Assembly: GCA_036172665.1 (NCBI GenBank) | Contig: CM069872.1 | Coordinates: 25,114,001 to 25,178,000 of the forward strand | DNA from: Prosopocoilus inquinatus | Taxonomy: Eukaryota; Arthropoda; Insecta; Coleoptera; Lucanidae | Direction: 5' to 3' | Length of the DNA: 64,000 nt | Part shown: positions 27,430-43,370 of the stretch, piece after piece | How positions within the stretch are numbered: the first letter of the stretch is position 1 | How the letters are laid out: the number at the start of each line of letters is the position of its first letter | Translations under genes and position numbers: made by a program | The notes under the pieces: model-generated | The model's database searches: none | The model's input: only the letters and a program-made list of their open reading frames with translations | What the model was told of the DNA's origin: nothing

Positions 27430-28516
27430 AAAATGGGAAGACATAAGACCCTTCACTCATAGAGAATTAGAATTGGAGGTACAGAACATACTCGCAGGTG
27501 AATTCGGTGATGAAAACCAAGAATGCAACGAAGAAGATTCCAGCGACTCAAAGGTTGAAGACAATTTGGAGAATAATTTTAGCCCGTCTGGATCAGAGAT
27601 CAGACTTTTCCGATATAGGAAGTACCGATTCTGAACGAAATAGTCCTCGGAAGAAGAAAAGATTTAGGAAAAATTCTTCTCTTTGCGCACCTAGAAATTC
27701 TCCTACAATGTAAACCAAGGCTGTGCTTTATCCCGGATATCGGCGGATATCCCGGACATCGACAACCAAGAAGAACGACAGCAAACTGAAACTGATATTC
27801 AACATTTTAATGAGATAGATAATGAACAAAGAGAGTTAAACAATTTCGAGGAAACTGAAGAACAAGAAAACTCAGATATTCTTTTAGAGTCTGAGCAACA
27901 AGAAGTCAATTTGCCTCCCGGTTTGAAAGGAAAGAACGTTGGTGTACAGTTTCCAACATACGGAAATATATTTCAAAACGAAATATTCTGCATATTGTTC
28001 AAGGGCCTTCCAAACAAGCAAAAGATGCTAAAACACCATTAGATGCGTTATGATGTCTGGTGATTCTATGTTTGAAAAAATTGTGTTGCACACCAATGCT
28101 CAAATAAGAATAAAATCGGAAAATTTCAAAGTTGCTAAATCTACTAATTCTTCTACTACCAAGGATGAAATAAATGCTCTTGTTGGAATTTTGATATTTG
28201 CAGGTGCACAGAAAGACAACCACCTACACAGCAGAGATATGCTTGACTCCAAATTGTCCGGTTCTGTTTACAGAGCAATAATGAGTTGTGAAAGATTTGA
28301 TTTTCTTTTATGGAATTTGAGATTTGATGATAAAAATACGCGAGGTGAGCGAAGAATTCTAGATAAATTTGCCCCCATACGAGAAGTATAGGATGAATTT
28401 ATTTTCAACTGCAACGTGTCGTATAAGCCTGGTAGTTAATAACCATTGATGAACAATTATTGGCATTTCGAGGCAGGTGCCCTTTCAGGATGTATATCCC
28501 GAATAAACCCGCCAAA
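27430..28516 (+). pseudogene. piggyBac-like transposase, N-terminal part
   Basis: An acidic N-terminal region (ILAGEFGDENQECNEEDSSD) is followed after frame changes by the clear DDE_Tnp_1_7 block from 28050: ALVGILIFAGAQKDNHLHSR, MLDSKLSGSVYRAIMSCERF, LLWNLRFDDKNTR, LDKFAPIREV. A stop at 28391 and another shortly after lie before TIDEQLLAFRGRC...MYIPNKPA. The frame is then broken at 28516 by a hAT element and resumes at 36373. piggyBac enzymes excise at TTAA without a footprint; this copy is dead. Confidence 0.85.
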
Positions 28517-28828
28517 CATAGGCGCCGGATTTTGCAAATATTGTCGGGTGCAATTTTTGTCGATAGTTCAGTTTATAACATGTATAATACATATAATTTG
28601 TTCACAAATGAAAAGACAACTACCGGTGTTTCCTTATGAAAAATACAACTGGCAACGGCTTCCTTGTTAGAAACTCGATAACAGGTGCTTTCTTTTGCAT
28701 AAAAGTTTGAATCTGTTTTCGACTAGTTTTAATCTGGATTCTGTAGCAACAAACAAACAAAGCTTTGAATTATCGATATGAAAGTTTGCCTACAAATAAC
28801 TGCAATTCAATCAAAACGAAATATAAAA

Positions 28829-28832
28829 ATAC
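28829..28832. repeat. 4-bp TSD of the Gypsy element (left)
   Basis: ATAC here and at 35391-35394. Confidence 0.9.
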
Positions 28833-29159
28833 TGTTACGTTTCTAGGGTTTAAAGATTATTTATTTAAACGAATAAAACACTCGATAAAAACTTAACCGT
28901 AATTTAATAAAGCTTAAAAACTAATTTATTTGTAACAATTTATTTTCACACTAAAATCTAACTTCGACGATCGCTGTTCGAATTCGACTGACTCGTGAGT
29001 CAACTCCGGGCGATTTTATATCATTTGCTGCCGTCTGGAATCCTCCAGGCTGGAGAAGTCTAGTCTGTTCGATGTAGGCCCCGGTGGCGTGACGGCCGAT
29101 GACACATAACAGCGAACCGACTTCTTGACGCCTTGAGCTAAGCCGGGTGGTACGCCACA
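28833..29159 (-). repeat. Gypsy 3' LTR
   Basis: TGTGGCGTACC ... CGTAACA on the minus strand. The pol frame runs through the polypurine tract and ends inside this LTR at 29018-29016. Confidence 0.95.
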
Positions 29160-29372
29160 CTGCCCCCTTCTTAAAAACGTTTCGTCTCGAAATGTTCCTG
29201 GTGATAGTCTTGAAGGAGGGTGTCGGAATCTACATGCTGGCCCATTCTTGCAACTTCCCGTCTGGAAGAAGTAACAGTCTACGGTTTTGCTGTTGCTGAC
29301 TGTTGCCTGTGGGTGGTGGCTGCAGACTAGGACTTCAATTCCCGTTCTGTGGAAGATGACTTCCAGCATGCT
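29016..29372 (-). CDS. Gypsy pol C-terminus: end of macrodomain and CCCH zinc finger
   Basis: Directly in frame after the TGA at 29375-29373. It reads SMLEVIFHRTGIEVLVCSHH, the last helix and strand of a TARG1-type macrodomain. Residues 32-50 of the open part (29276-29220) then give CYFFQTGSCKNGPACRFRH, a C-x7-C-x5-C-x3-H zinc finger of the type that binds RNA in many eukaryotic proteins. The chain crosses into the 3' LTR. No other function is visible. The TGA looks like a single mutation in an otherwise clean frame. Confidence 0.85.
   Translation of the reverse strand, partial: SMLEVIFHRTGIEVLVCSHHPQATVSNSKTVDCYFFQTGSCKNGPACRFRHPPSRLSPGTFRDETFLRRGQCGVPPGLAQGVKKSVRCYVSSAVTPPGPTSNRLDFSSLEDSRRQQMI
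29160..29172 (-). promoter_or_regulatory. Gypsy polypurine tract
   Basis: AAGAAGGGGGCAG on the minus strand abuts the 3' LTR, the expected plus-strand primer. Confidence 0.85.
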
Positions 29373-30983
29373 TCAAATTACTCTCCAGTCTAGTCCGTCC
29401 AATCCGCAGCCCAATTTGGGGATGGCTAACTTCATCTGATGGTTCTCTATTAGCTGTCTCCTCAGGCTATATAGCGCTCTCCACATACTTTGATAGTCAG
29501 GTTTACCGCTTGATGTCTTCTTAGTGACTAAATAATGCACGTGGCGCCTCCGATCTGCCGTCGAATCAATGATCTGCAAGCTCTTGCCTACCACGGGATG
29601 CTGTCTTCGTAGCTCCTCGATTTGGCCAAATTTCTTGCTAAACACCTGAGCGTTTCCTTTGGACATTTTCAGGTCTTCTGCTACGCAGTGGGCCAGACTG
29701 TACTCCAGTGGCACTTTAAAGAGATCTTGTTGCTTCTCCGTGGTCACTCCAAACCGTGCCTTGCTTCCTTCGGCGTGATGAGACATGAAGGTTTCGAAGT
29801 TCACTTCGGAAACTTGCGCCCTTTGTACTGTTCCTTCATCTGCTTCTCCATGGTAAGGGGCTATCCGGTTGAAGTGGATTAATTTGGGTTTGCCATGGGG
29901 GACCTTCTTGATGCGGTAAACGACGTCGTTGATCCGTTTCATCACTTTGTAAGGACCTTCCCAAGAGGTCTGCAGTTTTGGGGACAGGCCTCGACGTCTT
30001 TGGGGGTTATAAAGCCAGACCAGTGCTCCAGGTTGGTATCCCCCGTGTTGAGCGTTGATGTCATAGTGTTCCTTCATCCGATCGCTGGCCATCTGTATAT
30101 TGTGACGCACTTGGTTGTGGATGTCGTCCATTTTCCTGCGTAATTTGCTCACGTAATCTTCGTCGGCAGAGACTTCGCCAGGCTTCACACCAAACTTCAG
30201 GTCGCAGGGCAGTCTCGGCTCTCGCCCGAATACCACTTTCGCCGGAGTCTCCCCTGTTGTCTCATGAACGGACGAGCGGTATGCCATTAGGAACAGGGGA
30301 ATGTACGTGTCCCAGTCCCTCTGATGATCGGAAACGACCTTGGACAAATGTCGGTTGATGGTTCTGTTGAACCTTTCCACCATTCCGTCTGACTGTGGGT
30401 GGAGTGCAGTTGTTCTAGTTTTTCGTACGCCGAGCAGAGTACACACGTTCTTGAACAAGGCCGATTCAAAGTTCCTTCCTTGGTCTGAATGCAGTTCCAT
30501 AGGTGCACCATACCGACTGATCCATTCCCTGACAAGAACTTCCGCAATAGTGACTGCCTCTTGGTTAGGTAGGGCGTAAGCTTCAACCCACTTACTAAAG
30601 TAGTCCATTACCACGACGATGTACTTGTTTCCACCATTCGTTTCTGGAAACGGGCCGGCTACATCGATGGCAACTCTCTCAAAAGGACTTCCAACGTTGT
30701 ACTGTCTCATGGGGGCCTTACCCCGCCTGTGAGGACCGTTACTGGCTGCGCAGACTGCACACTTTCTGCACCAATCCTTCACGTCTTCCTTGCAGTTCAC
30801 CCAGTAAAATCTTTCGCGCACCTTCTCCATAGTCTTCTTAACTCCCAGATGCCCTCCCGAAGTTCCATCGTGAAGTTCCCTCAGAACTTCTGGCACCCTA
30901 TTCTTGGGGATTAGTAACTGTGTCTTCTGTTCCATGCCTTCCTGATTCTCTATGCTTCGTCTCAGAAGACCACGATCCAACAC
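29373..30983 (-). CDS. Gypsy integrase fused to a TARG1/OARD1-like macrodomain
   Basis: In frame with gag-pol after one TAG. Integrase: zinc-binding H-H-C-C (H38, H45, C75, C78), catalytic D107, D167 and E203 with 35 residues between the last two, then a chromodomain-like or GPY/F-type end (WEGPYKVMKR) to about residue 378. A linker of about 35 residues follows. From residue 416 the chain reads QQDLFKVPLEYSLAHCVAED, KGNAQVFSKKFG, VHYLVTKKTSSGKPDYQSM and IPKLGCGLDGLDW. This is the fold signature of the OARD1/TARG1 macrodomain, which removes ADP-ribose from glutamate. The two residues known to act in human TARG1 (Lys84, Asp125) correspond to K488 and D529, both present. A TGA ends the frame about 25 codons before the domain ends. 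Possible role: reversing host ADP-ribosylation, by inference only. Confidence 0.9.
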   Translation of the reverse strand: MLDRGLLRRSIENQEGMEQKTQLLIPKNRVPEVLRELHDGTSGGHLGVKKTMEKVRERFYWVNCKEDVKDWCRKCAVCAASNGPHRRGKAPMRQYNVGSPFERVAIDVAGPFPETNGGNKYIVVVMDYFSKWVEAYALPNQEAVTIAEVLVREWISRYGAPMELHSDQGRNFESALFKNVCTLLGVRKTRTTALHPQSDGMVERFNRTINRHLSKVVSDHQRDWDTYIPLFLMAYRSSVHETTGETPAKVVFGREPRLPCDLKFGVKPGEVSADEDYVSKLRRKMDDIHNQVRHNIQMASDRMKEHYDINAQHGGYQPGALVWLYNPQRRRGLSPKLQTSWEGPYKVMKRINDVVYRIKKVPHGKPKLIHFNRIAPYHGEADEGTVQRAQVSEVNFETFMSHHAEGSKARFGVTTEKQQDLFKVPLEYSLAHCVAEDLKMSKGNAQVFSKKFGQIEELRRQHPVVGKSLQIIDSTADRRRHVHYLVTKKTSSGKPDYQSMWRALYSLRRQLIENHQMKLAIPKLGCGLDGLDWRVI

Positions 30984-30995
30984 TATGCAGTCCCA

Positions 30996-33900
30996 CTACG
31001 CCCAGTATGATTTTACGGACGGTGCACATGGTGCTACCTCTTCCCAGGTAGGCCTCGCGTTCCTGCTTTTCCACTCTAGCACTAATTTCAAATCCGGGTC
31101 GTTCTTCTGGTCTCTTCGCAGTTCTTCGTCTTGCCATTTGTCGTCAACTGTGGCTGTCCTCGCAGTCGTGGCTACTTTCTCGTCCAAACGACTACAGTGC
31201 TTACAGTCTTCGGCACAGGGTCTTCTCGACAAAGCATCGGCATTTCGATGGCTAGTTCCTGCCCGATGCTGAATTTCAAAGTCGTACTCCTGAAGTCGTT
31301 CGATCCATCGTGCAACTTGCCCTTCTGGGTTCTTGAAACGGAGAAGCCATTTTAGAGCGGCGTGGTCGGTCCTCAGCAGGAAGCGTCTACCATACAAGTA
31401 CTTGTAGAAGTGTTCTATCGTTTTTACGACGGCTAGCAATTCCCTTCTTGTGACGCAATAGTTTCGTTCCGGCTTTGATAGGACTTTACTGAAGTAGCCG
31501 ATCACCTTCTCTTGCCCCTCTTGTATCTGGGAGAGTACGCCACCAATCCCAACGTTGCTAGCATCTGTGTCTACGACGAATTTGCCTTCCGGGAGAGGAT
31601 AACTCAGAATAGGAGCACTAATCAAGTACTGCTTTAGTTGTTCAAAGCCAATTTGACACTGTTGGTCCCATTCAAATGGACGACCTTCTTCAGTGAGTTT
31701 TGTTAACGGCTTAGCAATGTCTGCAAATCCAGGAACGTAGCGCCGATAGTAAGTGCACAGGCCAAGGAAACTCCTTATTTGGTGTTTATTTCTGGGAGTT
31801 GGCCAGTCTTTCACCACCTGAATCTTCACAGGGTCCACGGCGATTCCATTTCCATTAACAATGTGCCCCAGGTAATTCACTTCCTTCTGGAACAGGTGAC
31901 ACTTCTTGAGGCTAAGCTTTAGTCCAGCTCCGCGAAGCCGCTGGAACACTCCTTCCAGGTTCCTTAGGTGGTCGTCGAACGTCTTTCCCACGACAATTAT
32001 GTCATCAAGGTACACCATGCACGTTGTCCAGGACAGACCTTTCAGAACCGTCTCCATTAACCTCTCGAATGTCGCTGGGGCATTACATAATCCGAATGGC
32101 ATCACTGTGAACTGCCACAGACCCATACCAATGGAAAACGCCGTCTTTTCTCGATCTTCAGGCGCCAGCTCAACTTGCCAATATCCACTCTTTAAGTCCA
32201 AAGTTGAGAAGATCTTTGAGCCGGCCAGGGTGTCCAGGGTATCATCAATTCGTGGCAGGGGATAGCTGTCCTTCTTGGTGACATTGTTGAGTAACCGGTA
32301 GTCTACACAGAACCTGGTGGACCCATCCTTCTTCTTCACAAGCACTACTGGTGACGCCCACGGGCTGCTTGATGGTTCTATCACATTATCCTTTTCCATC
32401 TCGCGAATAATGCGTTCCGCTTCCTCACGCTTCGCCAATGGTAATCGCCTTGGAGCTTGACGGATAGGTCTTTCTTCTCCAGTCTCTATTTTGTGTTTCA
32501 CGACATCAGTTCTTCCCTTGGATCCATTTTCTACCTCAAATACATCTTGATAGCGGCCGATCAGATTCTTTGCTTTTGTCTTCTGGTCTGGAGTCAATTC
32601 CTGGGCTGTTGACATAACCATTTCCCATAATTTCTTTGGGACTTTCGCTTCTGGCACGTTTGTTTCAAGTTGCCGGGAGATGGAGGACACCATGGTGCAG
32701 CTTCCCAAGATTGTTCCTTTCTTGATATTGACAGAGAAACAATTGACGTTCATCAGGCGGTCAGGTACTTCCTTCTTCGCCGTCAACAACATTTTTCCAA
32801 CGAGGACTCCTCTTCCAATCTTCTGATCATCTGTATTAGGTTCAACCATAACGACCTGCCCATCTTGAAAAACACCGTTCAGTTTTGCGTCGACGATAAC
32901 CTCAGTCCTGCTGGGTAATACAACGTCTTCAGAGAGGACTACTCGAGCGGCCACGTCTCCTCGTTGATGTAGAACCAACTCCTCATTATTGACCGCCATC
33001 ACGCCACGCTTTAAGTTCAATTGAAACCCGTGGGCACACATGACGTCCATGCCCAAAATTGCTTCGTCCTCTATGTCTGCTACCAGTGCACGGTGTTTTA
33101 TTGGAGTTGAACCAATGGTGATGATAACCTCTACTTCACCGTGGAGAGTTGCTGATGTTCCAGTTGCAGTTTTCAGTCTCCACTTGGTCGGCTCGGTGCG
33201 TCCAGATGACTTAATTACGTCGGGTCTTAGGATGGTCTTCGTCGCACCCGTATCCAACAACATGGTGTGAGGAATGTCATCAATGGTGACATCCACGAAG
33301 ACACTGCTGGTTAACTGCCGTAGGGATATTACTTGTTTGTCTTTCGTCTTTGGGGGCCTTTGAATACGAGTCGACGTTTGCCCCTCTGCACCGGCCCGGC
33401 TTAGTTTAACTGTGGCTTCCTTGGATCCTGTCTGGGCTTTGGACATCGTCTGCGAACATGTCCTTCGTCCTGGCCTTTCCAGCGGCTTCTTCTTCTTGAG
33501 AACCCGTTCCACAATGCGGCGAACATCCTCGGCGGTGGCATATTCCTTGGATTGCCCCTTATTAGCAGATCCCACCTTGGCGTTGGCGGACTCTTCCTCT
33601 TCTTCCTCTTGGAAGTCCATAGCCGCTCGCACCTTGACATGCCCTCTTGAAACTCGTCTCGCCGCTTCAAATTCCAAGGCATAAGCCAATGCGTTCTTGG
33701 ATGTCTTCGGATGGGTCATTCTCAATGCCTGCTGGTTGTCTGGGTCACGGATTCCATCTATGAAGGTCTGCACCGTCAAACATTTGAGGAATTCAACAGG
33801 AGCTGTGGGATATGCCAACTGGGCCAGACGCGCTACGTCCGCTTCGAATTCCTGAAGACTTTCTCCGGCTTTCTGACAGCGATTCCTCAACTGCGCATGG

Positions 33901-34964
33901 TATACCTCGGTCAGATGGGCCTGTCCGTAACGCATTTCCATCCTATTCACCAGCTTGTCGAAGTCTTCTTGTTCCTCTGGCGGCATCGTCTGTAGCACAT
34001 CGATAGCGTCCCCTCTCAAAGCCACAATTAACGAAGTGGCTTTTTCGCTGGCTGTCCATCTGTTCGCCTTTGCTGCTGCTTCGAACTGTTTGAAGTAGTT
34101 GGGCCAAGAAGACTTTCCATCGAACGTTGGTGGTTTTATTTTCAATTTCGAATTTTCTGCTGGTCCTTCCACAATTCGGGTTTCATTATTTTCTAGTGTT
34201 TCTACTGGTGGCTGATCCCCGAACACTCGCAACCCCGCCATGATTTGTTCCAGATTTTTGATTTTGTTATCCTGCTGAAATATTATTTCCTCCACATTTT
34301 CTTGCAGGTTCTTTGTTTCTTCTGATATTTTTACCACTAATTTATCTTCGAGGCCTTTTGTTTGTTCTAGAAATTTCTCGTCAAAATTTCTGGAGTGCTC
34401 TCGAAATTTCTCGTCTAAGTCTCTAGATTGTTCCAACAATTTATTCTGTAATTTGTCCAAATTTCCAGATTGTTCTAGAAGCTTCTCCTCTAAATTTCTG
34501 GATTGTTCCATCAATTTAGTTTGCAACTCGTCTTTGAAGTTTACAGATTGTTCTCGAAGTTCGTCCTTGAAATTTCCAGATTGTTCTAGAAGCTTTTCCT
34601 CTAAATTTCTGGATTGTTCTCGAAGTTTCTCTAAATTTCCAGACTGTTCTTGAAACTTCTCGTCCAAATTTCTGGATTGTTCTCGAAGTTCGTCCTTGAA
34701 ATTTCCAGATTGTTCTCGAAGTTCGTCCTTGAAATTTCTGGATTGTTCTCGAAGTTCATCTTTCAAGATTTTATTAAAATCGACGGGACCACACGAAATT
34801 TCGAACAGGAACGTCTCTGGATCTTCACCAGCTGTCAACAAATCGGATCGGAGACGCTGTTGAAGTGCGCCTTTCAAACCACAGGTTTCTAACTCTCGTT
34901 CTTCCAATTCGGTTTTTAATTCGGCCACTTTTAAGTATTTCAACAACACTTTTCTCGTAGCCAT
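30996..34964 (-). CDS. Gypsy gag-pol: Gag, protease, reverse transcriptase, RNase H
   Basis: 1,322 codons from MATRKVLLKYLKVAEL. Residues 8-42 resemble a SAP motif. Residues 68-235 are tandem 11-residue repeats (ELREQSRN..., KLLEQSGN...) predicting a long coiled coil. Residues 275-440 are a retrotransposon Gag domain (KIKPPTFDGKSSWPNYFKQF). Protease active site LLDTGAT near 569-575; reverse transcriptase with MPFGLCNAPATF and YLDD (985-988); RNase H with DTDAS, E1175, TDHAALKWL and NADALSRR. The frame ends at TAG 30998-30996 and continues in frame after it into integrase, so the stop is probably one point mutation. No complete CCHC knuckle is in frame; a GHVRRRC half lies in another frame at about 33460. 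Confidence 0.95.
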   Translation of the reverse strand: MATRKVLLKYLKVAELKTELEERELETCGLKGALQQRLRSDLLTAGEDPETFLFEISCGPVDFNKILKDELREQSRNFKDELREQSGNFKDELREQSRNLDEKFQEQSGNLEKLREQSRNLEEKLLEQSGNFKDELREQSVNFKDELQTKLMEQSRNLEEKLLEQSGNLDKLQNKLLEQSRDLDEKFREHSRNFDEKFLEQTKGLEDKLVVKISEETKNLQENVEEIIFQQDNKIKNLEQIMAGLRVFGDQPPVETLENNETRIVEGPAENSKLKIKPPTFDGKSSWPNYFKQFEAAAKANRWTASEKATSLIVALRGDAIDVLQTMPPEEQEDFDKLVNRMEMRYGQAHLTEVYHAQLRNRCQKAGESLQEFEADVARLAQLAYPTAPVEFLKCLTVQTFIDGIRDPDNQQALRMTHPKTSKNALAYALEFEAARRVSRGHVKVRAAMDFQEEEEEESANAKVGSANKGQSKEYATAEDVRRIVERVLKKKKPLERPGRRTCSQTMSKAQTGSKEATVKLSRAGAEGQTSTRIQRPPKTKDKQVISLRQLTSSVFVDVTIDDIPHTMLLDTGATKTILRPDVIKSSGRTEPTKWRLKTATGTSATLHGEVEVIITIGSTPIKHRALVADIEDEAILGMDVMCAHGFQLNLKRGVMAVNNEELVLHQRGDVAARVVLSEDVVLPSRTEVIVDAKLNGVFQDGQVVMVEPNTDDQKIGRGVLVGKMLLTAKKEVPDRLMNVNCFSVNIKKGTILGSCTMVSSISRQLETNVPEAKVPKKLWEMVMSTAQELTPDQKTKAKNLIGRYQDVFEVENGSKGRTDVVKHKIETGEERPIRQAPRRLPLAKREEAERIIREMEKDNVIEPSSSPWASPVVLVKKKDGSTRFCVDYRLLNNVTKKDSYPLPRIDDTLDTLAGSKIFSTLDLKSGYWQVELAPEDREKTAFSIGMGLWQFTVMPFGLCNAPATFERLMETVLKGLSWTTCMVYLDDIIVVGKTFDDHLRNLEGVFQRLRGAGLKLSLKKCHLFQKEVNYLGHIVNGNGIAVDPVKIQVVKDWPTPRNKHQIRSFLGLCTYYRRYVPGFADIAKPLTKLTEEGRPFEWDQQCQIGFEQLKQYLISAPILSYPLPEGKFVVDTDASNVGIGGVLSQIQEGQEKVIGYFSKVLSKPERNYCVTRRELLAVVKTIEHFYKYLYGRRFLLRTDHAALKWLLRFKNPEGQVARWIERLQEYDFEIQHRAGTSHRNADALSRRPCAEDCKHCSRLDEKVATTARTATVDDKWQDEELRRDQKNDPDLKLVLEWKSRNARPTWEEVAPCAPSVKSYWA

Positions 34965-35045
34965 TGTTTTTTTTTCCGATACTGTACTTATTTAATAATC
35001 TGATTAAATTTAATTTACTTTAAATTGTTTATTTATTTTCACAAA

Positions 35046-35062
35046 CCCGCACACCGACACCA
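35046..35062 (-). promoter_or_regulatory. Gypsy primer-binding site
   Basis: TGGTGTCGGTGTGCGGG starts one base after the 5' LTR. TGG complements the CCA end of a tRNA; I cannot name the tRNA. Confidence 0.7.
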
Positions 35063-35063
35063 C

Positions 35064-35390
35064 TGTTACGTTTCTAGGGTTTAAAGATTATTTATTTAAA
35101 CGAATAAAACACTCGATAAAAACTTAACCGTAATTTAATAAAGCTTAAAAACTAATTTATTTGTAACAATTTATTTTCACACTAAAATCTAACTTCGACG
35201 ATCGCTGTTCGAATTCGACTGACTCGTGAGTCAACTCCGGGCGATTTTATATCATTTGCTGCCGTCTGGAATCCTCCACGCTGGAGAAGTCTAGTCTGTT
35301 CGATGTAGGCCCCGGTGGCGTGACGGCCGATGACACATAACAGCGAACCGACTTCTTGACGCCTTGAGCTAAGCCGGGTGGTACGCCACA
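35064..35390 (-). repeat. Gypsy 5' LTR
   Basis: 327 bp, nearly identical to the LTR at 28833-29159; followed by the ATAC TSD. Confidence 0.95.
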
Positions 35391-36005
35391 ATACTTTAAT
35401 TCGAAGGGAAAAGGAAATTACCAATCTGAACTGAAATTTCAAGGAGAGTGAGGATTAATCCGTTTGGAAAAGAACGTCCGTCTTTGAATCTAAACGCATT
35501 TGGATCACGTTTTTGTGAGCAAAAGAAAGCACCTAATAAAGTGTCAAGTATGTGAAATAAATGACAAGGTTACGAGTTCTGAATTTTTAGTAATTACGAT
35601 AGATTAATGGTTTCTTTCATTTTAACAGTAAGTGCTTTCTTTCCCTTAAAAGTTTGAATCTAGTTTCGAATAGTTTGAAACTGGATTCCGTAGTTGTTGC
35701 AACAAAACACCTCAGATTTTAATTATTGACTGACAATTCGTCTGCAAATAACAGCATTTCGATCCAAATCAGTCCAAACAAAACATAAAAATAGTTTGAT
35801 TTGAAGAGGAAAGGGGATCATCGATCCGAACTGAAATTTCAAAGAAAGCACCTAGTGAAAAGGTTTTCTTCCATTTTCATGGCTTTGAGAAGGATAAGTA
35901 TTAGATATTTGAAGTCATTGATAATATTTTACAGGGGACTTGTGTTTTATAACAACATAATGCAACAGGTGGTGGTTTTTTGATTTGTGAATAAATAATA
36001 CACTA

Positions 36006-36084: not shown

Positions 36085-36372
36085 CATTTAAGTATGCTGT
36101 ATTCCTGCTTTGGACGATGAACCAGGAAGAGCTAGCGATATTTTAAACAATTTCTGAATTTCTAGTAGGTAATGTAGTCAACTGCGGATTTTCTTTAAAA
36201 AACTGTGTACTGTCAAATAAATTCTGCGTCAAATAATTTCTGCTTCTTTAAATTTAGTAAATAAAAAGACACCACTTTGTCGGGTGCTCTCCAATACTTT
36301 TGCACCCAACAAAATCATTTGTCAGGTGCACAAGACCCGTGTACCCGACGAAGCGGCGCCTGTGCCGCCAAA

Positions 36373-36794
36373 TATGGGATCAAAATTGTAATGACTTGTG
36401 AGGCTGGTACAAAATACATGTTAAATGCTGACCCTTATCTAGGAAAACATACACGTACAGACGGTGAACCTTTGGGAGAATATTATGTCAAAAAATTAAC
36501 AGAAAATATTTACGGCAGTAACTGCAACATCACAATGGACAACTGGTTCACTTCGGTTAGCCTAGCGGATAAACTCTTGAGACCTCCTTACAAGTTAACA
36601 ATTCTTGGTACTTTGCGGCAAAACAAAAGGGAGATACCCCCTGAAATGCTTGATTTGAAAAACAGAGAAGTCGGAAGTTCGATATTTTGTTTCGTTTTAG
36701 TATTATCAACAATGCATGGAGGCTCAGTTTGTCAAGAAATTAAAAAATCCGAGATGATTTTGCACTATAATCAAACCAAGGACGGGGTCGATAC
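36373..36794 (+). pseudogene. piggyBac-like transposase, central part
   Basis: Continues the frame broken at 28516: KYGIKIVMTCEAGTKYMLNA, DPYLGKHTRTDGEPLGEYYV, CNITMDNWFTSVSLADKLL and ending NQTKDGVDT. It includes the DNWF and DGVD blocks with catalytic aspartates of piggyBac enzymes. It stops where a solo LTR has inserted. Confidence 0.9.
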
Positions 36795-37082
36795 TGTTAC
36801 ATCCGTCACGCAAACAGATCTATTTTTAGCATCAGTACGCCACCTTGCGTCACAGAACATGACCGAAAACTACTCGATAATTCTAGCATGTTCGGGCAAT
36901 AGAGGGCTCTGCTATATAAGCCGACGATCCGCCAGAAGTAGTTAGTTATTAAGATAGCCAGCGAAGGGTTCGTACCTCGAATAAATAGAAAGTAGTAGTG
37001 TTAATTGTGTATATCGACAGCTTATAATTAAAGTGTTCTAAAATTTAACGACTATAATTTGTGAACCCCCAAATTCGTAACA
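36795..37082 (+). mobile_element. Solo LTR (family A)
   Basis: 288 bp from TGTTAC to GTAACA, flanked by a perfect 4-bp TSD ATAC (36791-36794, 37083-37086). TATATAAG at 36913-36920 is a promoter TATA box. It is inserted inside the piggyBac frame, which resumes right after. Confidence 0.9.
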
Positions 37083-39229: not shown

Positions 39230-41411
39230 TAAAGTCCGGATTTATATGTGCTAAAAAAGTGGAAAATAAGTTTTTTTTATGCGATTAAAATGGATCAAAA
39301 TATGGATATTATATGCGATAAAAATTTTATTTTACTTATACATACTTTAGAATAATAAAAACATAAATTGTTTCATATAAGTAATTTTAACACTTAACAC
39401 TTAAATAGTAGGATTACAAAATATAATCAACAGTTGATTTAAATTATTTGGGGTAAAATTTTGTCGTCTGTCTGTCAAAATATTTTTATAAGAGGAAAAC
39501 GAACGCTCGACATCGCATGAAGTAATGGGCGCAAATTTCATGGATGCTACATCTTTGGGGTCCATGTCCAAATCCTCTTCACTTTGACCTTTTAAAACTA
39601 AACAGATTTTCCTCATTTTATTGTAGTCAGGATTACGTAATAGAACCTTGTCTAATTTTGCCATTAACTTCTCTCCTATCTCCCCTGGAATTGATTTTAC
39701 ACTTTCAATTGCATCATCGACCACTTCAAAAGAATCTAATAGAGCCGTCTGGGATGATTCCAACTTTTTAATGGTGGATATTAAAACCGAAAAATGAGTT
39801 TTAATGAATGCTAATTGATTCCCGATGTTTGTGTTCGACATGCATTCCTTACAAATTCTTAAAGCCGCTGAATTGGAATCATCCAATTCTAAGAAAATTT
39901 CCTTTAATTGTTTAAAGTTATCTGCGTAAAAATTTGCTGCTTCAAGCCACGTACCCCATCTCGTAATTATAGGTTCTGGTGGTAATGGCAGGTCAGCAGC
40001 TAATTCTTTATAGTGTTGTATACGCAGTGGGGCTTTAAGAAACGCCTTTTTTCCGTTATTGATCAACTTATTTACTGTTGGGTATTCTAGTCGCACCAAT
40101 TCAGCGAGCCTATTCATTGCGTGAGCCATACAAGTGAAGTGCATCAGATTTGGGTAAAACACCTGTAAAGCCTGTCCTGCTTTTATCATGTAGGCTGCTG
40201 CATCAGACACCATTAGTAATATATTTTCCGATTTAACTTGATTAGGTGCATATAAAAGTGTCAAGCTGTCGTTAATAAAACGTGCGATCGTTGAATGATT
40301 TGTTTTTTCCAAAACTGCACTATTTACCAAATAAGATATTGGTGCAACTGTGTTGCTTAATACTCCTGCTAACATATTTGCTACATAACGACCGCAGGCA
40401 TCTGTCGTTTCATCAACTACTATATAAATATTGTTGTCGCTAAGCTTCTCTCTTATTTTCTTCATCCGTTGCTGATAGCATATACTTAGATAGTTTTTCC
40501 GCAAAGTCGATTCATTTGGAATATGACGATTGCAATATTTTTCCAAAAAAGTTCGAAAACTTGCTTGTTCAAGTTTATGCCAAGGAATGTTTGACTCTGC
40601 CATAGCACTGCACAAGTCTAAAAAGAATTCATTTCCTGTGTCACTGCCCTGTGAGTTACTGGCTGTTGAAGAAATAAAAGACTGCTTAAAGTTAGACACA
40701 CATCTTTTCTCCGACTCCTTATGGAGGTTTGTAGCCAAATGTTGATCAATCTGGTACTTTTGGTCTGACGACACCTTAAAATATTGTCAAAATGAAAATG
40801 TGATTTTTAAGAGAATTTGTAAGGTATCTACCTGTTTTGAGCATGCGTTGCAAAAAATAACTTTTCCATCTGTAGTTAGATGTTTAGATGCTTTAATCCA
40901 TTTTTTCAATAGCTCGGATCGAGAGGATGCTACTTTCGGCATTTTGAAAAGATAAGCACTGAATTTATTTCGTCTTTAAATTAAATAAGAAAATAACAAC
41001 TAATTCGCGTTGATAAATACACTAGTCACTAGTCACACACATTCACGGAGTTCTTATCTCAAACTGAAATGCAAAACATAAGTGCAAAATGCAAGTGCAA
41101 GTCGCTACAGATTCCCAGAAAATCACATTCCGGGAAATCGTAAAATAAAGTGGCCAGACGTTGAGAAGAATAAATTACTTCTTGGAAAAGCTGCAGACTT
41201 GAATATTGACCGTATATGGAATTATAATGTTATTTATATCAATATATGGATAAATAAATAAATATGCGCTAAAAGTCTAAAATATTAAGTTATATGCGAA
41301 ATAAAACTACCATTTTTGGGCTTCTCTAATCGACAAACATATAAATACAAAACGCCAAGTTTAGGTATGTTAGCGTAAAAAACTTGTAAAAACTTATAAA
41401 TCCGGTCTCTA
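39230..41411 (-). mobile_element. hAT transposon, apparently complete
   Basis: An 8-bp TSD CATATAAG (39222-39229, 41412-41419) flanks ends TAAAGTCCGGATTTATATG and the inverse of TAGAGACCGGATTTATAAG. 2,182 bp with an unbroken two-exon transposase gene, so possibly recently active. Confidence 0.9.
39401..40942 (-). CDS. hAT transposase, two exons, intact frame
   Basis: Exon 1 40942-40832 begins MPKVASSRSELLKKWIKAS and has CNACSK; intron 40831-40775 (57 nt, GTAGAT...TTTAAG). Exon 2 40774-39401 supplies QHLATNLHK, completing a BED-like finger, then the RNase H-like hAT core with VDETTDACGRYVANMLAG, MVSDAAAYMIKAGQAL and FTCMAHAMNRLAELV. The C-terminal hAT dimerisation block is CDVERSFSSYKNILTDRRQ. 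About 494 residues with no stop or frameshift. hAT enzymes excise via hairpins and make 8-bp duplications, as seen here. CGGBP1-like domesticated proteins are related, but terminal repeats and TSD show this is a transposon. Confidence 0.85.
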
Positions 41412-42254: not shown

Positions 42255-42722
42255 TTACAATAAATTTTTATGGGCACTATTACAGCGGAGGATCTTAGAA
42301 ATTAGGTTCTTGTTAACTAGGGGTGTATTTGTCAGATCTATTTGGTCATTGAGCAGATTATCCGGTTTCTCGGTAATTTCCTTGTAAATAAATATGGATT
42401 CTAACACGTTCATTTTATAACTTTTGTTCTCAACAAATAAAATTTCTAGATTATCTAAAGAGGTGGTGTGATCACAACTCAGCAAATGATTAGCGAATAT
42501 TGAATTACCTTGGTTTAATCTGGCTACTCTCATATGTTCATCAAACCGTAGTTTAAAATTCCTTATTGTTTGTCCTATGTAACATTTATTACAGTTCGAA
42601 CATTTCAGTTTATAAATCCCTGACTTTTTGTACTTATCCTGTTTTAATTTGTTGTTTACAAGGGATGATTTGATTGTGTAATTATTGTAGAATGCAGTTC
42701 TGTAACCTATTTTCTTAGCCAA
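42255..42722 (-). pseudogene. Penelope-like element GIY-YIG endonuclease fragment
   Basis: 155 codons. KKSGIYKLKCSNCNKCYIGQ holds GIY and YIG with the CxxC insertion that distinguishes PLE endonucleases; RFDEH supplies the catalytic Arg region, NHLLSCDHTT the His, and LESIFIYKE the metal-binding Glu. It would nick target DNA to start reverse transcription. The reverse transcriptase half is missing, so the copy is 5'-truncated. The fragment itself is open with all motif residues visible. Confidence 0.85.
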
Positions 42723-43047: not shown

Positions 43048-43370
43048 TGTGGCGCGCCACCCAGCTCACTACGTCAAACTGAAGGCGTCAAGAAGTCGGT
43101 TCGTTATGCGTCATTGCTGCCACGCCACCGGGGCCTATACCGAACAAACTAGACTTTTCCAGCGATGGAACAGATGAGAAGGCAGCGTAGAATATAAAAT
43201 CGGCCGGGGTGGACTCAGGAGTCGTTCGAGTTCTAATTAGCGATCGTCGAAGTTGGATTTAGTGTGTAAATAAATTGTTACAAATAAATTGGATTGTAAG
43301 CATTATTAAATTACAGTTTTTACCGAGTATTTTATTCAAATAAATAAATTTAAACCCTAGAAACGTAAAA
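43048..43370 (+). mobile_element. Solo LTR related to the macrodomain Gypsy
   Basis: TGTGGCG ... CGTAAAA; shares GGCGTCAAGAAGTCGGTTCG and the CACGCCACCGGGGCC and CCCTAGAAACGTAA pieces with the young Gypsy LTR but has many differences. 4-bp flanks ATAT on both sides (43044-43047, 43371-43374). It shows an older relative of the same family. Confidence 0.8.

Follow-up and report, generated by a model that had tools for sequence, protein, structure and literature searches.

Background

Why would a retrotransposon carry, behind its integrase, a protein domain of the kind that removes ADP-ribose? The question is raised by a Ty3/Gypsy long terminal repeat (LTR) retrotransposon of 6,558 bp that lies on the minus strand, at positions 28833-35390, of a stretch of 64,000 nucleotides from the beetle Prosopocoilus inquinatus (assembly GCA_036172665.1, contig CM069872.1, positions 25,114,001 to 25,178,000); this whole stretch is referred to here as the window. 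An original prediction, made from the sequence alone, had proposed that in this element a TARG1-like macrodomain and a CCCH zinc finger follow the integrase in the pol frame, both captured from the host.

Extra protein domains are considered to become fixed only rarely in LTR retrotransposons, and such cases can shed light on interactions between element and host (PMC9289625). Human TARG1 removes ADP-ribose from glutamate and aspartate residues as well as from thymidine in DNA (PMC8501950), and TARG1 occurs occasionally among invertebrates, the fruit fly included (PMC4245714). Here we report evidence that an insect Ty3/Gypsy lineage once captured a TARG1-type ADP-ribosylhydrolase and kept it as a C-terminal extension of the integrase, often together with a CCCH finger. 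Of the TARG1-class identity of the domain and of a single capture we are very nearly certain.

Results

A TARG1-class macrodomain behind the integrase

On the minus strand, an open reading frame at 29373-30983 encodes the end of the integrase, with its H2C2 zinc-binding domain (PF17921, 30738..30911, E = 1.4e-20), rve core (PF00665, 30405..30686, E = 1e-12) and C-terminal domain p58_C (PF22938, 29856..29957, E = 1.2e-10), followed by the first 121 residues of a macrodomain (29376..29738). An in-frame TGA within the macrodomain (29373..29375) closes this frame in the window copy. Past the TGA, the same frame runs from 29372 down to 29016 and holds the 22 codons of the macrodomain's C-terminal end (29307..29372) and a CCCH zinc finger (29214..29288). 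The segment had been placed correctly by the original prediction; the frame crosses the polypurine tract, and its last part, from 29159 down to 29016, falls within the 3' LTR.

The piece of 121 residues that precedes the TGA matched human TARG1/OARD1 (4j5r) at E = 1.3e-23, the match spanning residues 4-119; it lies in the same frame as the integrase, as had been proposed, and the next-best macrodomain match, 5m3i (DarG by its title), followed at E = 0.0065. The Pfam Macro model gave the same piece 12 bits, under its cut-off of 22, and the domain may for this reason go unannotated. The window piece shares 39% identity with human TARG1 over 114 residues, and protein P0019 shares 50% over 110 residues; the family members shown range from 30 to 50% against the human fragment. 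Alignment also bore out the catalytic residues that had been named: K488 (codon at 29520..29522) and D529 (codon at 29397..29399), residues 73 and 114 of the piece, are the equivalents of TARG1 Lys84 and Asp125, and across a 33-row alignment K73 is invariant and D114 nearly so (90% or more). Asp125 of TARG1 is catalytic. Lys84 is catalytic too, and a Lys84 mutant fails to rescue (PMC8501950).

The fold agrees with the sequence match. The structure predicted for the window's 121 residues, which stops at the TGA and so is without the end of the domain, has a mean predicted local distance difference test score (pLDDT) of 89.8, and its best eight PDB matches are all human TARG1 chains (4j5s_A at E = 6.0e-11; template-modelling (TM) scores of 0.82-0.88 by query length), with DarG next. 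The same order, TARG1 and then DarG, was returned by the model of P0240, a natural protein of the beetle Brassicogethes aeneus that comprises the macrodomain and a finger region in which the first Cys is replaced (4j5s_C, E = 6.7e-17, TM score 0.97 by target length, 0.8 Å). By sequence and by modelled structure, the integrase extension is identified as a TARG1-class macrodomain with a predicted TARG1 fold and Lys/Asp dyad. A donor of the MacroD type is unsupported, since sequence and structure matches alike lead to TARG1 and then to DarG.

The Lys84 equivalent is kept in 26 of 27 element macrodomains and the Asp125 equivalent in 24 of the 26 that have a residue at that place. Because the TARG1 fold and the dyad are retained in nearly all members, the macrodomain is most likely an active hydrolase, and we expect with good confidence that most members are catalytically competent.

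The window's finger, C-x7-C-x5-C-x3-H, is a true CCCH finger by its PF00642 score (29.5 bits against a cut-off of 20.5; E = 7e-7). Among 26 family proteins, the pattern C-x7/8-C-x5-C-x3-H is intact in 15, degenerate in two, absent from seven and cut off in two. Since six of the seven finger-less proteins share one group of the reverse transcriptase (RT) tree described below, the finger was probably lost in one subclade. Nothing structural is claimed for it, as the finger region of the P0240 model is of low confidence (pLDDT about 50-65).

Distribution among proteins and species

Of 7,957 candidates scored in a protein search with the RT, 6,146 reached E<=1e-100, and the macrodomain is carried by 19 of the 120 RT matches listed. 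In a second search, with the macrodomain region of protein P0007, 130 of 427 candidates reached E<=1e-8; the named proteins among its 120 listed matches belong to two longhorn beetles, Aromia moschata and Molorchus minor. In the combined set of 238 proteins, 137 have the macrodomain (19/120 from the RT search and 118/118 from the macrodomain search, the latter as expected by design, since that search selects for the domain), and a CCCH pattern lies nearby in 120 of the 137, including 11 of the 19 RT-search carriers. Further named carriers are Callosobruchus maculatus (P0027) and Brassicogethes aeneus (P0240), both beetles, and the leafhopper Macrosteles quadrilineatus, whose P0239 and P0241 are annotated 'OARD1-like' and were judged by their sequence. 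The named carriers thus amount to four beetles and one leafhopper. The element also accounts for some insect proteins whose annotation reads 'C3H1-type', 'SAP domain-containing', 'Cleavage and polyadenylation specificity factor' or 'OARD1-like'; they look like fragments of this transposon.

Two macrodomain-bearing Gypsy proteins are filed under other organisms, P0008 under Klebsiella pneumoniae and P0044 under Erysiphe pulchra; both are likely contamination of those assemblies. Chance resemblance or a single-copy insertion is ruled out by the TARG1 match, the other proteins and the copies found in the beetle's own genome. A gene-model artefact is likewise ruled out, as the fusion can be read directly in the DNA of the window and of the genome and recurs in proteins of several sources.

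Trees of the macrodomain and of the reverse transcriptase

The macrodomain tree comprised 64 sequences, 27 from elements and 37 others. The elements were the window, 18 of the 19 RT-search carriers (P0005, which is truncated, was left out) and eight later picks, in which one protein each of Aromia and Molorchus stands for many; P0239, P0241 and P0256 had been classed as elements by their sequence before the tree was built. The others were human TARG1 and 36 of 40 homologue hits, with one named fly, two named viruses and the rest without a species name. All 27 elements fall on one side of a branch with support 100/98, against the 37 others. Beside the element group, at 91/88, stand eight sequences not from elements, that of the fly Teleopsis included, and the group is apart from the viral rows P0252 (Scale drop disease virus) and P0272 (Terrestrivirus). 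Bootstraps of this tree had not settled and few named insects were available for comparison; with so thin a comparison set, capture of an insect TARG1 is likely and not proven. A prokaryotic or viral donor is unsupported but weakly tested, as two rows of the tree are named viruses and no row is a named bacterium. When contigs of IMG/VR and GTDB were scanned by pattern, 4, 28 and 7 matches came up, and tblastn confirmed none of them.

In the RT tree (118 rows, three of 121 having been dropped for a short RT; a short search with support from the Shimodaira-Hasegawa-like approximate likelihood ratio test, SH-aLRT, only, and some long branches outside the group), all 20 macrodomain-bearing rows, the window included, lie within one group of 27 rows with SH-aLRT 99. 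The other seven rows are four fragments and the proteins P0010, P0015 and P0032. Parsimony over all RT rows requires five label changes when fragments are scored as macrodomain-less. For 18 elements (P0005 out), RT and macrodomain distances are correlated (r = 0.577), a value reached by 0 of 10,000 permutations. As judged from these trees, there is one TARG1-type capture in this Ty3/Gypsy lineage, followed mostly by joint inheritance with the RT.

Two points raised by the original prediction hold in part. Constant fusion to the Gypsy integrase holds as a lineage-fixed trait in the 20 RT rows and fails in P0010, P0015 and P0032; capture of a hydrolase together with a finger holds for the hydrolase, which the trees trace to one TARG1-type event, and is qualified by the subclade without a finger and by two proteins without the Asp (see below).

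Copies in the Prosopocoilus genome

A search of the beetle's own genome (649.6 Mb) gave 1,319 first-look candidates, of which 150 were scored. Every scored match is 97-100% identical over the 121 residues and free of stops there, so the segment, which could have been a peculiarity of this copy, is present at 150 scored places besides the proteins of the four beetles and the leafhopper. At 30 loci examined, the dyad pattern is present in all and the CCCH pattern in 28. A stop at the place of the TGA occurs in one of the 30, the window's own (L001); readthrough of the TGA as a regular mechanism of expression is hence unsupported.

Ten copies were sampled for their LTRs by taking every seventh of the first 70 entries in the copy list. 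All ten have two LTRs, without mismatch between them in three and with at most three mismatches in eight, and matching 4-bp duplications flank four of the five copies whose LTR match reached both outer ends. The retrotransposon family has been recently active.

The LTRs of ten sampled copies (L031-L050) are 80-98% identical to the window LTR (28833-29159), while their macrodomain DNA differs at 3-7 of 363 bases. With LTRs so divergent and macrodomain DNA nearly identical, LTRs may be exchanged between lineages or may evolve much faster.

Decay, loss and selection

Several observations weigh against a hydrolase that is maintained throughout the family. The window copy itself is broken by two in-frame stops, a TAG and the TGA, and at least five stops occur in the 500 upstream codons at 13 of the 30 loci, so that many copies are decayed or cut in that stretch. 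Three members of the RT group, P0010, P0015 and P0032, are without a macrodomain; in P0010 a remnant resembling the finger and tract region makes this look like loss of the domain. The mean distance among the 18 elements is 0.49 for the macrodomain against 0.22 for the RT, and this faster divergence may reflect weak constraint and not an arms race. Finally, P0016 (Arg/Asn) lacks both dyad residues and P0028 (Lys/Asn) lacks the Asp; the two form a supported pair with long frames, and their loss of the Asp implies that hydrolase activity is not needed everywhere.

Measures of selection, which the original prediction had suggested, were taken from the 16 of the 30 copies that have no gross frameshift. 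The ratio of nonsynonymous to synonymous differences per site (pN/pS) stands at 0.17 for the finger part, against 0.23 for the integrase core. It is 0.04 in the macrodomain query part, a value biased by the use of the macrodomain protein itself to find the copies, and 0.00 in the macrodomain's C-terminal end, where 22 codons show no amino-acid difference at a pS of 0.023 and an average of 0.33 synonymous differences per pair, which makes this thin evidence of selection. The value of 0.59 for the upstream segment is unreliable. Purifying selection is thus suggested by ratios below 1 (0.00-0.23) in the measured parts, tempered by the biased choice of copies and the few differences.

From losses and rapid divergence of this kind one might argue that the macrodomain is a hitch-hiking captured domain, functionless or a folding or processing spacer at the end of the polyprotein, as its divergence beyond that of the RT, the pair without the Asp and the three macrodomain-less rows would allow. 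We think this improbable, given that the dyad persists even though two macrodomains differ, on average, at roughly every second position, that the domain is present in beetles and a leafhopper, and that pN/pS lies well below 1 in the measured parts, including the query part with its bias from macrodomain-based copy finding.

The pair P0016 and P0028, having lost the catalytic Asp yet kept the domain, also bears on the main rival explanation, in which the macrodomain would be a reader rather than an eraser, binding ADP-ribosylated chromatin and steering integration to damaged or PARP-marked sites. The chromodomain of chromoviruses, likewise an extension of the integrase C terminus, reportedly steers them to heterochromatin, and the macrodomain is placed as that domain is, after the integrase C-terminal domain. 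Yet binding alone would not need the hydrolytic dyad, which nearly all members examined keep, and P0016 and P0028 are also altered in the GCG loop, so that binding may be lost in them too. A reading role is unlikely in our estimate.

Structure of the element and its surroundings

The element is assigned to Ty3/Gypsy by its LTRs, its target duplication, the order protease-RT-RNase H-integrase and its RT matches. The 5' LTR (35064..35390) and 3' LTR (28833..29159), both on the minus strand, are 327 bp each with TG...CA ends and differ by one mismatch of 327. ATAC stands on both sides of the element (28829..28832 and 35391..35394) as a 4-bp target-site duplication. Adjoining the 5' LTR is a candidate primer-binding site (35046..35063, minus strand), and next to the 3' LTR lies a putative polypurine tract (29160..29172, minus strand), read in frame as LRRGQ, a motif present again near the frame end in several relatives.

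A single frame on the minus strand encodes, in order, Gag with a SAP domain, protease, RT, RNase H, integrase, macrodomain and CCCH finger. Its portion from gag to RNase H (30999..34964, 1322 residues) holds the SAP domain at the Gag N terminus (PF02037, 34845..34943, E = 8.8e-6), the aspartyl protease (PF13650, 33042..33296, E = 1.4e-9), the RT (PF00078, 31857..32339, E = 1e-37) and RNase H (PF17917, 31284..31592, E = 1.7e-33); the in-frame TAG of the window copy (30996..30998) falls between RNase H and integrase. Within Gag, eight imperfect repeats at 34302-34794, spaced by multiples of 3, encode a repetitive region rich in LREQSRN. No CCHC zinc-knuckle pattern was found in the Gag-to-RNase H part. 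Between pol and the 3' LTR there is no env frame of the kind that marks an errantivirus, the pol frame itself entering the LTR, and the Pfam domain search detected no chromodomain, the mark of a chromovirus, after the integrase. Named proteins among the RT matches listed include K02A2.6-like, transposon 412, 297 and Ty3-I, and it is by these names that the RT is placed closest to Ty3/Gypsy elements.

On both sides of the element, on the plus strand, lie parts of DDE_Tnp_1_7, presumably a piggyBac-type transposase (profile positions 11-109 at 28050-28391 and 149-286 at 36277-36945). Their order follows the profile, and the Gypsy element was therefore probably inserted into an older DNA transposon. 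A direct repeat of 62 bp (85%) outside the element on both sides (28685-28746 and 35632-35693) may belong to an older repeat. A lone LTR at 43079-43368 (minus strand) is 82% identical to the element LTR over 305 columns, and apart from it no other piece of the element was found within the window. The segments 39401-40774 and 42255-42722, both on the minus strand, hold hAT-like (DUF659; weak Dimer_Tnp_hAT) and GIY-YIG fragments.

Discussion

From its position after the integrase, the hydrolase would be made with Gag-Pol and go where the integrase goes, unless the protease cuts it off. Being one part of the gag-pol polyprotein, the domain would be packaged alongside RT and integrase and take its place on the replication and integration complex. 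There it could strip ADP-ribose placed by host PARPs from element proteins (on Glu or Asp), from RNA or cDNA, or from chromatin at the insertion site, with the CCCH finger helping to keep it on element RNA; the selective gain would be escape from restriction based on ADP-ribosylation.

Evidence from other insects is compatible with such a role. In Drosophila parp-1 mutants, five mobile elements are significantly up and three down, and ten more, nine of them of the gypsy superfamily, trend upward in the same data and fail the false discovery rate threshold; the authors allow an indirect cause for these changes, which is a further point against the proposal (PMC7712786). A few Tribolium PARPs group near the root or ancestor of the PARP7/11/12/13 branch (PMC4245714). 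Position, TARG1 chemistry, the parp-1 data and the Tribolium PARPs together lead us to prefer an eraser by which the element's nucleoprotein is kept clear of host-made ADP-ribose, and we put it at about an even chance that erasing host ADP-ribosylation that hinders the element is the domain's main role.

The substrate might instead be ADP-ribose on the element's single-stranded cDNA or on RNA/cDNA ends, and not on protein. TARG1's reversal of thymidine ADP-ribosylation on DNA has been called unique and non-redundant (PMC8501950), the next structural relative, DarG, is a bacterial DNA hydrolase, and a macrodomain on the integrase would be beside the cDNA. However, a DarG match is equally expected of any TARG1 fold, and no animal enzyme is known to us to write thymidine ADP-ribose on retro-cDNA; we rate a dedicated guard of nucleic acid as rather doubtful.

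Taken as a whole, a captured, active eraser that travels with the integrase is, by a modest preference, the explanation we adopt. More tentatively, insects may restrict retrotransposons by ADP-ribosylating their proteins or cDNA, with this Gypsy lineage countering by an integrase-borne hydrolase. We know of such counter-defence only from viruses and from bacterial toxin-antitoxin systems, and a direct anti-transposon role of PARPs in insects is, to our knowledge, little explored. That a TARG1 domain is conserved on an integrase suggests a point of contact, in insects, between ADP-ribosylation and the life cycle of retroelements; the family hints that insect cells may use ADP-ribose tags against jumping genes, and it offers a way to test this. 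Established substrates exist for assaying the activity of the macrodomain in vitro, and the domain is small and well modelled.

Comparison with known systems

LTR elements and other retrotransposons with captured enzymes are already known in kind, with an N6-methyladenosine (m6A) demethylase in orchid Gypsy elements and helicases in insect long interspersed nuclear elements (LINEs); among the titles and abstract openings listed from an open-access library, with most subscription journals outside its scope, none dealt with a macrodomain in an LTR retrotransposon. The closest parallel may be the Ty3/Gypsy elements of Phalaenopsis with an AlkB/2-ODD domain, likewise a Gypsy lineage with an acquired eraser of a modification, for which activity was shown in vitro; those are plant elements of 25 kbp that act on m6A in RNA from an additional ORF (open reading frame), whereas the window element is an insect element of 6.6 kb with one frame and ADP-ribose as its putative target (PMC9289625). 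TRAS/Jockey LINEs are insect retrotransposons with a fixed extra enzyme domain, as here, and for TRAS the helicase has been reported as a suppressor of RNA silencing; unlike the window element, they are non-LTR elements, and theirs is an RNA helicase from a viral donor (PMC5563155). Chromoviruses carry an extra module at the same place, the integrase C terminus, theirs being a chromodomain, which was not found here.

Alphaviruses, coronaviruses and some DNA viruses resemble the element in being parasites with ADP-ribosylhydrolases. The macrodomains of coronaviruses, togaviruses and iridoviruses are of the MacroD type (PMC7729036), unlike the TARG1-class domain of the element; TARG1-like homologues exist in viruses, few of them with all essential residues (PMC4245714). 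Human TARG1 (OARD1, C6orf130) is like the element macrodomain in sequence, fold and Lys84/Asp125 dyad, and differs from it in standing alone, in PDB chains of 146-160 residues, where the element's version is an extension of the integrase with a CCCH finger after it.

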